Assembly (NCBI GenBank): GCA_021108415.1
Contig: JAIOQX010000002.1
Coordinates: forward strand, 558,001-622,000
Source: Acholeplasmataceae bacterium
GTDB lineage: Bacteria > Bacillota_I > Bacilli_A > Acholeplasmatales > Acholeplasmataceae
Reading direction: 5' to 3'
Length of the DNA stretch: 64,000 nucleotides
Made by a program: the position numbers and the translations under genes. Below the pieces are notes generated by a model. It did not search any database. It had not been told where the DNA came from and saw only the letters and a program-made list of their open reading frames with translations. Shown here in pieces: positions 6,602 to 10,542 of the stretch (within the stretch, counting starts at the first letter, position 1; every line of letters starts with the position of its first letter).

Positions 6602-7954
6602 TTAATCTCTATATAGTGATTCTTCTCGATCTTCTTTAGCTGTAAATCTAGAATATTCAGTATCAAATCTAAAGCTTAATCTAATACCAGCCATACCTTG
6701 TCTATTTTTAGCAATACTTAATTCAACATCTCCTGTTTTCTTTTCAGGATCATGAATATAATAATCACCACGATACAAGAACATAACAATATCAGCATCT
6801 TGTTCAATTGCACCTGATTCACGAAGATCAGCTAGAACAGGTCTTTTATCTTCACGTTTTTCAACTTCACGAGATAATTGTGATAAAGCTAGAATAGGAA
6901 TTTTCAATTCTCTTGCCATTTGTTTTAAACTTCTAGAAATTCTTGCAACTTCTTCTTGTCTATTTCCTGATTTTGTATCTCCTTTAATCAATTGAAGATA
7001 ATCAATAATTACAAAATCTAATTTACCTTCTTGGGATAATTTTCTACATTTTGCTCTAATATCAGCAACTGTTACACTTGCTGAATCATCAAATGAAATA
7101 TTTAATAAAGATAGTGATTGGATACCACCTTCAAGATGTTGCCATTCTTTTGAAGTTAGGTTACCTGTTTTAATCTTATTATTTTCGACATTAGCTTCAG
7201 CTGAAAGCATACGAGCTGCAAGTTGTTCATTACTCATTTCTAGAGAGAAAATTGCAACTCCACTTTTTCCTTCTTTATTATGTTTAGCGATATTTAATGC
7301 TAAATTCATCGCAAGTGCTGATTTACCCATTGATGGTCTAGCAGCTAAGATAATTAATTCTTCTGGCTGCAAGCCAGCAGTCAATCGATCTAGGTTCTCA
7401 AATCCAGTGTGAAGACCTGTGATACCGCCTTTTTTATTTCTATTTTTTTCAGTTTTTTCTTTAACTTCTTTAATAACATCAGAGATTACTGCAAATGCAG
7501 ATGTTTTTCTTTTTTGAGCTAGGGCAAAGATTCTCTCTTCAGCTTGTGTTAAATATTCTTTAGCTTCTACATCTCCATCAAAACCTTGTTTAACAATTTC
7601 ATCAGCTAAATTAATGACTTGTCTTTTTAACGATCCATCTTTAACTAAATCAATATAGGTTTCTATATGCGCTGTTGATGGCACAAAATCAGCTAAGTCA
7701 AGGATGTATTTCATCCCACCGACTTTGCTTAGGTTTTGTGTTTGTTCTAATTTAGAACCAACACTTGCATAATCTATTTTTAAATTTTCGTTATATAAAT
7801 CTTGCATCGCTTGATAAATCAAGATATGACTTTGCTCAAAAAAATCTTCGTTATCTAATTGGTCTAAAACTTGTACAATCATTTTAGGATCTAGAAATAT
7901 TGAGCCAATAACAGATTGCTCTGCTTCTTTATGATAAGGTAAACTCTTTGCCAT
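6602..7954 (-). CDS. dnaB: replicative DNA helicase
   Basis: LIILAARPSMGKSALAMNLA, FVIIDYLQLI, SQLSREVEKR. Confidence 0.97.
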   Translation of the reverse strand: MAKSLPYHKEAEQSVIGSIFLDPKMIVQVLDQLDNEDFFEQSHILIYQAMQDLYNENLKIDYASVGSKLEQTQNLSKVGGMKYILDLADFVPSTAHIETYIDLVKDGSLKRQVINLADEIVKQGFDGDVEAKEYLTQAEERIFALAQKRKTSAFAVISDVIKEVKEKTEKNRNKKGGITGLHTGFENLDRLTAGLQPEELIILAARPSMGKSALAMNLALNIAKHNKEGKSGVAIFSLEMSNEQLAARMLSAEANVENNKIKTGNLTSKEWQHLEGGIQSLSLLNISFDDSASVTVADIRAKCRKLSQEGKLDFVIIDYLQLIKGDTKSGNRQEEVARISRSLKQMARELKIPILALSQLSREVEKREDKRPVLADLRESGAIEQDADIVMFLYRGDYYIHDPEKKTGDVELSIAKNRQGMAGIRLSFRFDTEYSRFTAKEDREESLYRD

Positions 7955-7963
7955 AATAAAATC

Positions 7964-8407
7964 CTACTTTTCTACGATATGTACTTCAAATTGCGCCTTT
8001 ATCTCTTTGTTTAAGGTTACAAAAGCTGTATAGATACCAACAGAATTTATTTCTGATTGTAGTTCAACTTTTTTCTTATCAATTAAAATATGATGCTCTT
8101 TTTCAAATTCTTCAACTATTTGTTTAGTTGTAATCGCGCCAAAGAGTTTTCCATCTTTACCGATTTGAATGCCTAATGTAACTTTCTTACCATCAATTTC
8201 ACCTTTTAAGGATTTCATTAATGCGATATGTCTTTGATTTGCTTCTAGCATTTCTTGTTTTTCTTTTTCTAATGTCTCAAGGTTTTCGTCAGTTGCAAGC
8301 ACTGCCTTTTTTTGATTTACAAGAAATTGACCATAACCATTTGCAACTTCAATGATTTGATTCTTCTTGCCTTTTCCTTTAACATCTTCTAATAATATAA
8401 CTTTCAC
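7964..8407 (-). CDS. rplI: 50S ribosomal protein L9, possible independent internal translation start (GTG)
   Basis: CAAGGAGGAGAAATCGTG at 8422..8405 (minus): strong SD with 7-nt spacing to an in-frame GTG opening the L9 domain. Confidence 0.65.
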   Translation of the reverse strand: MKVILLEDVKGKGKKNQIIEVANGYGQFLVNQKKAVLATDENLETLEKEKQEMLEANQRHIALMKSLKGEIDGKKVTLGIQIGKDGKLFGAITTKQIVEEFEKEHHILIDKKKVELQSEINSVGIYTAFVTLNKEIKAQFEVHIVEK

Positions 8408-10408
8408 GATTTCTCCTCCTTGACCATATTCTAATTCAATCATGTTTTTTAATTCATCCACGACTTCTTTAATTGATCTATTTTTTAATTGAGCAGCAGC
8501 AACACTAAAGTGTCCACCTCCACCAATTGATTCTAATAAAATTTGTACATTTACTTTTTGAAAACTTCTTGCACTAATCCCTACGATATCATCACTCATT
8601 CTTGAGATGGTAAATGCAGCATCAATATCATTGATTTGTAGTGCGGCATCTGCAACTTGTGCCAGTAAGATTCTATCATCATATATATCTCTTGTCACGA
8701 TAAATGCGAAATGACCTAAAAAGATTTCTACATGTGATAATAATTTATTAATTTCCATGGTTCTTAAAAAGTCTTTTCTAAGCCATGTTTTAACTTCTGA
8801 TGTATCAGCACCTAAGTCTTTTAGTTGTGCTGCAACTTCAAATGTTCTTGATCCGGTTCTATAGACGAAATTGTTTGTATCTACAACTAGACCTGCATAC
8901 ATCATGGTTGCTTCTATTGGTGAGATATGAATTTCTTCATTCATATTGTAAAATCCTAAAAGTTCCATAACAAGTTCAATAGTTGATGATGCTGATGATT
9001 CAATAATAGAGAACATTGAATTAAATCCTTCGTCTCCAACTCGGTGATGGTCAATAACAATAATTTTTTCTGTTTTTGTTAAAACTTCTGCATCCATCAC
9101 TATTTTAGGTGATTGTGTGTCTAGAACCATTAAAGTGGATTGAGCATCTAGAAGCTCTAAAGCTTCTTTTGATGTAATCATATGTTCCATAATTTCTTTA
9201 ATATCATCTTTTACTATGTTTATAATTTTTTGAACAGTACGGTCAAGTTTTTCATGATCGACAATCAGATAAATTGGTTTATTGGAAACTTTTGCCATGT
9301 GATAACACGCAATCATGGAACCAAAGGCATCCATATCTGCTTGATTATGACCCATAATAAATATTTTACTTGAATGATCAATAAAATCTTTAATCGTTTG
9401 TGCATTAATTCTTACACTTACTCTTGAACTTTTTGATGATGCATCATTTTTTGCTCCAAAATAAGTGATTTTTTGATTTTGGATATTAACAACAACTTGA
9501 TCTCCACCACGTTTTTCAGCAAGTTCAACAGCATTTTGAGCATAAACACCTAATGCTTCATAATCTATATCCCACGATGCAATCCCCATAGAAATAGAGA
9601 CTCTTACTTTATTTTGATTTGAAATATCTCTAATTTTATCTAATAGTTCAAATTTTTTCTCGATCATTAATTCAAGATTTTTACGATAGCATATTAAAAA
9701 GATTCTTTCATCTGAATAAGGTTTTAAATATCCATCATACAAATGTGCCCAATCATTAATAGCTGCTAAATATTCACCTTTTAACGATGATTGTTCAGAA
9801 ACATCAAGTGAGCCTAATGCTTCATCAAGGTTATCTAAATAGATAATCCCAAGTGCAGGTATTTGTTCACTATATTTTTTTCTAACTTCTTCTCTTTCAG
9901 TTACATTAAATAAATAGAAAAAGTTGATATCAGGTCGATAAGTTACATCATATTGACTTTCTTTGATATCAACAATAAATCTAACTTTATTAGAATTTGC
10001 TTGTGCATAAAGTTTTTCACTAATATCTTTAAGGTTTTTCCCATCAATCTTTTGTTCAAAAATAATCTTTGCGTGTGGATTTGCCCATTTGACTTCAAAT
10101 GTTTCATCACATGCAATAACACCAATTGGAAGTTCGTTAAACACTTCATCTCCAACTTGATTTACATGGTAGGATAACTTAGTCCACATAGATAAGCGAT
10201 TTTGTAAAGTTTTAATTTTTTGTCTAGTTTGAAAATTTAAGCTGTAATATAGTCCCACAAAAGCTGCAGTGACACTAATCATTAAAAAAGAAAAACTTAA
10301 AACCTCTTCAATTGAATCAAAAGAAGCATATGGTAAAAACAAATATATACTTAATCCCAATAAGACTAAGACGCTTCCTAATAAAATCCAACGTTTCATA
10401 TGGTTCAC
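7964..10408 (-). CDS. c-di-AMP phosphodiesterase GdpP (TM-PAS-degenerate GGDEF-DHH/DHHA1) fused in frame to ribosomal protein L9
   Basis: N-terminal two TM, PAS-like and GGDEF-like regions, DHH motifs GHNQADMDAFGS and VIDHHRVGD; C-terminal ~147 aa VKVILLEDVKGKGKKNQIIEVANGYGQFL is L9. Confidence 0.93.
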   Translation of the reverse strand: MNHMKRWILLGSVLVLLGLSIYLFLPYASFDSIEEVLSFSFLMISVTAAFVGLYYSLNFQTRQKIKTLQNRLSMWTKLSYHVNQVGDEVFNELPIGVIACDETFEVKWANPHAKIIFEQKIDGKNLKDISEKLYAQANSNKVRFIVDIKESQYDVTYRPDINFFYLFNVTEREEVRKKYSEQIPALGIIYLDNLDEALGSLDVSEQSSLKGEYLAAINDWAHLYDGYLKPYSDERIFLICYRKNLELMIEKKFELLDKIRDISNQNKVRVSISMGIASWDIDYEALGVYAQNAVELAEKRGGDQVVVNIQNQKITYFGAKNDASSKSSRVSVRINAQTIKDFIDHSSKIFIMGHNQADMDAFGSMIACYHMAKVSNKPIYLIVDHEKLDRTVQKIINIVKDDIKEIMEHMITSKEALELLDAQSTLMVLDTQSPKIVMDAEVLTKTEKIIVIDHHRVGDEGFNSMFSIIESSASSTIELVMELLGFYNMNEEIHISPIEATMMYAGLVVDTNNFVYRTGSRTFEVAAQLKDLGADTSEVKTWLRKDFLRTMEINKLLSHVEIFLGHFAFIVTRDIYDDRILLAQVADAALQINDIDAAFTISRMSDDIVGISARSFQKVNVQILLESIGGGGHFSVAAAQLKNRSIKEVVDELKNMIELEYGQGGEIVKVILLEDVKGKGKKNQIIEVANGYGQFLVNQKKAVLATDENLETLEKEKQEMLEANQRHIALMKSLKGEIDGKKVTLGIQIGKDGKLFGAITTKQIVEEFEKEHHILIDKKKVELQSEINSVGIYTAFVTLNKEIKAQFEVHIVEK

Positions 10409-10542
10409 CTACTTTAGACATATTATATCAATAATATGACCCTTTTTCAATCAAATAAGGTCGTATAAACCATTATCACAAATAAAAGGGTTCATCTCAT
10501 AATGATATCACGTTTTTTATGATAAAATATAGAAAATAACAG

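Follow-up and report, generated by a model that had tools for sequence, protein, structure and literature searches.

A conserved, probable internal start site in the GdpP-L9 fusion genes of Acholeplasmatales and related families, with a predicted free bL9 product

The GdpP-L9 gene and its junction

The window analyzed here, a stretch of 64,000 nucleotides from an Acholeplasmataceae genome (contig JAIOQX010000002.1, positions 558,001 to 622,000), carries on its minus strand an open frame (7964-10408, 814 codons counted from an upstream GTG at 10408) in which GdpP and ribosomal protein L9 are joined. Its features are:

7964-10399, minus strand: GdpP-L9 fusion ORF, 811 aa from the probable ATG at 10399
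10405-10410, minus strand: SD-like AGGTGA upstream of the GdpP ATG at 10399, where translation of the message would first begin (from the sequence)
8408-8425, minus strand: linker G Q G G E I joining DHHA1 to L9, most of it ribosome binding site (from the alignment and junction table)
8415-8421, minus strand: internal Shine-Dalgarno (SD) AAGGAGG, conserved in relatives and read in the fusion frame within Gln-Gly-Gly
8408-8414, minus strand: spacer from SD to GTG, 7 nt
8405-8407, minus strand: internal start codon GTG at L9 residue 1, in frame; ATG or GTG in 166/166 single-copy fused genomes
7964-8407, minus strand: predicted free bL9, 147 aa from the internal start; the sole L9_N and L9_C matches of the genome, also matching TIGR00158

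The fusion contains the Pfam domains PAS_GdpP, GGDEF_GdpP, DHH, DHHA1, L9_N and L9_C; DHH and DHHA1 score above their cut-offs and the catalytic columns D-x-D, DHH and GGGGH are conserved in the alignment. Counted from the ATG, the GTG codon is residue 665, and both Ribosomal_L9_N and the TIGR00158 (L9) match begin there. The L9 part has both L9 domains and the Gly-Tyr motif (NGYGQFLV), as expected of bL9, and a profile search of the genome returned no further L9_N or L9_C match. In NCBIfam it has a full-length match, with the same domain order, to NF011110 (PRK14538, putative bifunctional signaling protein/50S ribosomal protein L9; residues 35-811, E 6e-301, 1000.5 bits against a cut-off of 707), so the fusion itself is already known. 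The name and description of that family present one bifunctional protein and mention neither an internal start nor free L9, and our literature search, largely outside subscription journals, found no paper on an internal start of the GdpP-L9 fusion. A replicative DNA helicase gene (DnaB-like; 6602-7954, minus strand) follows the fusion after about 10 nt in the same orientation; the order gdpP-rplI-dnaB is reported adjoining rplI in phytoplasmas (PMC3750655).

The minus-strand sequence of the junction, 8422 to 8405, is CAA GGA GGA GAA ATC GTG, encoding Q G G E I V. The preliminary description had placed an AAGGAGG SD here, with 7-nt spacing to an in-frame GTG exactly at the start of L9, and the sequence confirms this arrangement: the linker codons double as a ribosome binding site. 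A search of the window for AAGGAGG-N5-9-RTG gave 8 occurrences, where shuffles predict 0.79, and the other matches include ordinary starts such as those of rpsR (12325) and rpsF (13072). The anti-SD energy at the junction (-11.2 kcal/mol) is the strongest among the in-frame ATG/GTG codons examined in the gene, the best of the 24 others reaching -6.0 kcal/mol, and is equalled at 0.6% of the codon positions of the same gene.

Distribution, origin and conservation of the junction

The sole L9 found is the fused one in nearly all searched genomes of Acholeplasmatales, including phytoplasmas, and likewise in several related families. Within the order of the window, nearly every genome has its L9 inside an ORF of about 810-870 codons, and shorter fusion frames (e.g. 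L024, L163 and L177) are located at contig ends. The fusion is also present in five more families of the class (f9, f16, f19, f23 and f24), and the remaining families have a free L9 of about 150 aa. The named relatives retrieved, a mixture of fused and unfused, include Acholeplasma oculi, Haploplasma modicum, 'Ca. Phytoplasma mali' and onion yellows phytoplasma. Fused genes form almost one clade in the GdpP tree, with one unfused family (f7) nested, and a tree constrained to hold all fused rows in one clade was not rejected, being as good or better (p-AU 0.72). One ancient fusion is therefore enough, and repeated independent fusions are unnecessary to explain the tree. One phytoplasma-like genome carries two equal-scoring fused loci (G054:C1:328029 and 454421), either a duplication or contamination (estimated at 7%).

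Unfused relatives, with few exceptions, have gdpP and rplI next to each other or overlapping in different frames. The gdpP stop commonly lies at -1, +4 or +23 counted from the rplI ATG, and the rplI SD is often already within the 3' end of gdpP. The gdpP-rplI pairs of other Bacilli resemble the fusion in sharing one message and in commonly having the rplI SD inside the gdpP 3' end; however, their gdpP has its own stop, mostly in a different frame, and no fusion protein results. Cotranscription of gdpP and rpl9 has been described in S. pyogenes (PMC3711813), and translational coupling offers a comparison for such overlapping or adjacent pairs (PMC6728339). The earlier suggestion that the fusion arose by loss of a stop codon finds no support in this comparison: since the frames of the unfused neighbors mostly differ, a small indel is the simpler and likelier route. 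The SD within the gdpP coding sequence probably predates the fusion. How close the two states are can be seen in an unfused locus (L097, GAGGAGGAAGAAAATAATG) set against a fused one (L109, GAGGAGGAAAATATG). In the f7 locus L122 (G162), gdpP and rplI share a frame and are kept apart by one TAA, two codons ahead of the ATG (GAG GGA TAA AAA ATG); this family, nested near the fused clade, may represent a fusion undone by one stop or a pre-fusion state.

Our comparison set comprised 171 fused genomes, 166 of which (10 families) have the fusion as the only L9 found. In these 166 the junction codon is ATG (145, including one alignment shifted by one codon) or GTG (21) and no other. Conservation of the SD at the nucleotide level among fused relatives had been named beforehand as a check, and the SD is indeed conserved: it is kept in the single-copy fused genomes, a few of them with a weak one, though linker peptide and frame vary. 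The GGAGG motif is read in differing codon frames, as Gly-Gly, Lys/Gln-Glu-Glu or Ser-Glu-Asp, with 6 changes of frame on the tree by parsimony. Mean anti-SD energy is -9.5 kcal/mol at the junction versus -1.7 kcal/mol at other internal ATG/GTG codons, and predicted folding is weaker at the start region than in the rest of the gene (-3.3 versus -5.9 kcal/mol per 50 nt). Some phytoplasma junctions have a weak SD (-1.0 to -5.7 kcal/mol), and the spacing is long (12-13 nt) in several genera.

Genomes with an additional free rplI

Five genomes carry a second, free rplI directly downstream of the fusion (G094 and G106 in f2/g16; G411, G417 and G423 in f9/g90). They form two independent duplicated lineages in the GdpP tree, each adjoining relatives with a strong junction SD. 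The SD is missing from the fused copy in 5/5 (+0.5 to -2.4 kcal/mol) and present at the free copies (-5.7 to -11.4 kcal/mol; six were counted in the five genomes, one of them on a separate contig of G417). Fused copies of f9/g90 also lost the start codon (AAG, AAG and ACT); as a counterpoint, one of the two duplications, that in f2/g16, left ATG at the fused junction. The Gly-Tyr motif of L9 (about positions 24-25), which we take to sit in an rRNA-contact loop, is found in 0/5 fused copies of the duplicated genomes, and is kept in 165/166 single fused, 49/49 single free and 6/6 free copies of duplicated genomes. Among the sequences compared, the SD and ribosomal features are thus kept only where the fusion is the sole L9 source. 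With two duplication events only, the effect is large and the number small.

The fused tail of the duplicated genomes is nevertheless full length, with dN/dS of 0.115 and 0.322 (0.135 and 0.157 for their free L9), and this purifying selection after duplication hints at a second role. Horizontal transfer was considered as the source of the extra free L9 and set aside: in f2/g16 both copies fall within a 29-row set otherwise made up of fused L9s, so a local copy fits; for f9/g90 the L9 tree gave no resolution. G417 has a third L9, a free one on a short contig (L120, G417:C38), which groups with the free L9s of other families and is probably foreign sequence, given an estimated contamination of 5%. 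Two other f9/g90 genomes, G239 and G447, gave no L9_N match, and a GdpP-L9 search, run with no positive control, was likewise empty; their L9 may have been lost, be absent from the assembly, or have diverged past detection, and the fused L9 of their genus is diverged.

One message with two starts and the competing readings

We consider it very probable that one mRNA, read in one frame from two starts, would give both the GdpP-L9 fusion and free bL9. Ribosomes starting at the GdpP ATG would make a c-di-AMP phosphodiesterase carrying an L9 tail, and those starting from the internal SD and junction GTG would make free bL9, which would supply the ribosome. The preliminary description had proposed such a retained internal start, able to give free L9 besides the fusion, and the comparison strongly supports it: start codon and SD are kept in 166 genomes, and the SD is lost in both lineages with a separate rplI. 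We infer that initiation takes place at the junction and that free L9 is the ribosomal form; the fusion protein would also be made and useful. More tentatively, the fusion could be a genuine second product, a phosphodiesterase whose L9 tail has a selected role, perhaps in contacting ribosomes near the membrane, with duplication then splitting the roles (subfunctionalization).

The most durable alternative is that only free L9 matters, the fusion being tolerated as a side effect of losing the gene boundary, with an idle L9 tail. The GdpP of other Bacilli works without a tail, and free L9 alone accounts for all of the conservation at the site. However, the frame is open in 171/171 fused genomes, although one stop in the variable linker would split the products; the tail of the duplicated genomes stays full length under the dN/dS values given above, with the ribosomal need gone; and one unfused family, f7, may be a reversal. 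We regard this alternative as unlikely, though far from negligible.

Alternatively, the fusion alone might be made and incorporated into ribosomes, the SD-like sequence reflecting a protein constraint on a Gly-rich linker. A Gly-Gly peptide by itself gives fairly strong pairing, and a synonymous shuffle of the whole linker was not significant for energy in most Gly-Gly genomes; this test is weak in such lineages because the peptide and alternative pairing registers hold the energy low, and a codon-choice test was used in its place. Where the linker has Gly-Gly, its first Gly is encoded by GGA in 63/76, against a gene background of 0.31 by genus; where it has Glu-Glu, GAG encodes the leading Glu in 17/18, against 0.07-0.34. 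Both choices are far above background. The junction Val is always GTG (21/21), against 1/21 and 0/21 in two other all-Val columns. Moreover, the SD persists across widely differing linker peptides, other frames included, and disappears where a separate rplI is present. Codon choice, the GTG valine, the shifted frames and the loss in duplicated lineages all mark a junction conserved beyond what the protein sequence demands, and a fusion-only product is very improbable.

SD-like sequences inside genes have been suggested to slow translating ribosomes, and the site could in principle act in pausing, for membrane insertion or folding of GdpP, with no initiation; we give this hardly any credence, as it accounts neither for the strict ATG/GTG exactly at L9 residue 1 nor for SD loss only with a second rplI. 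Proteolytic cleavage of the fusion, comparable to that of ubiquitin-ribosomal protein fusions, would likewise yield free L9 and has nothing specific in its favor, but the linker residues vary widely with no conserved peptide site, while nucleotides and start codon are kept, which makes it equally hard to credit.

With two starts as the preferred reading, and with evolutionary evidence strongly supporting the internal start, we place GdpP-L9, a known fusion family, among genes with putative in-frame internal initiation. In E. coli infB/IF2, cheA and clpB, in-frame internal initiation yields a shorter C-terminal product. GdpP-L9 resembles these genes in having a single frame, an internal SD and start codon and a nested C-terminal product. 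Unlike them, its predicted nested product is a whole ribosomal protein, encoded by a separate gene in most bacteria, its site is inherited from a former gene boundary, and initiation is deduced from sequence.

Where the sole L9 found lies within the fusion, an annotation that gives the fusion only misses the likely ribosomal form. GdpP-L9 offers a clean, testable case of a gene fusion that retains an old start site, and the separate L9 gene, added twice in nature, serves as a control. If the fused tail also works, c-di-AMP signaling would be tied to a ribosomal protein.
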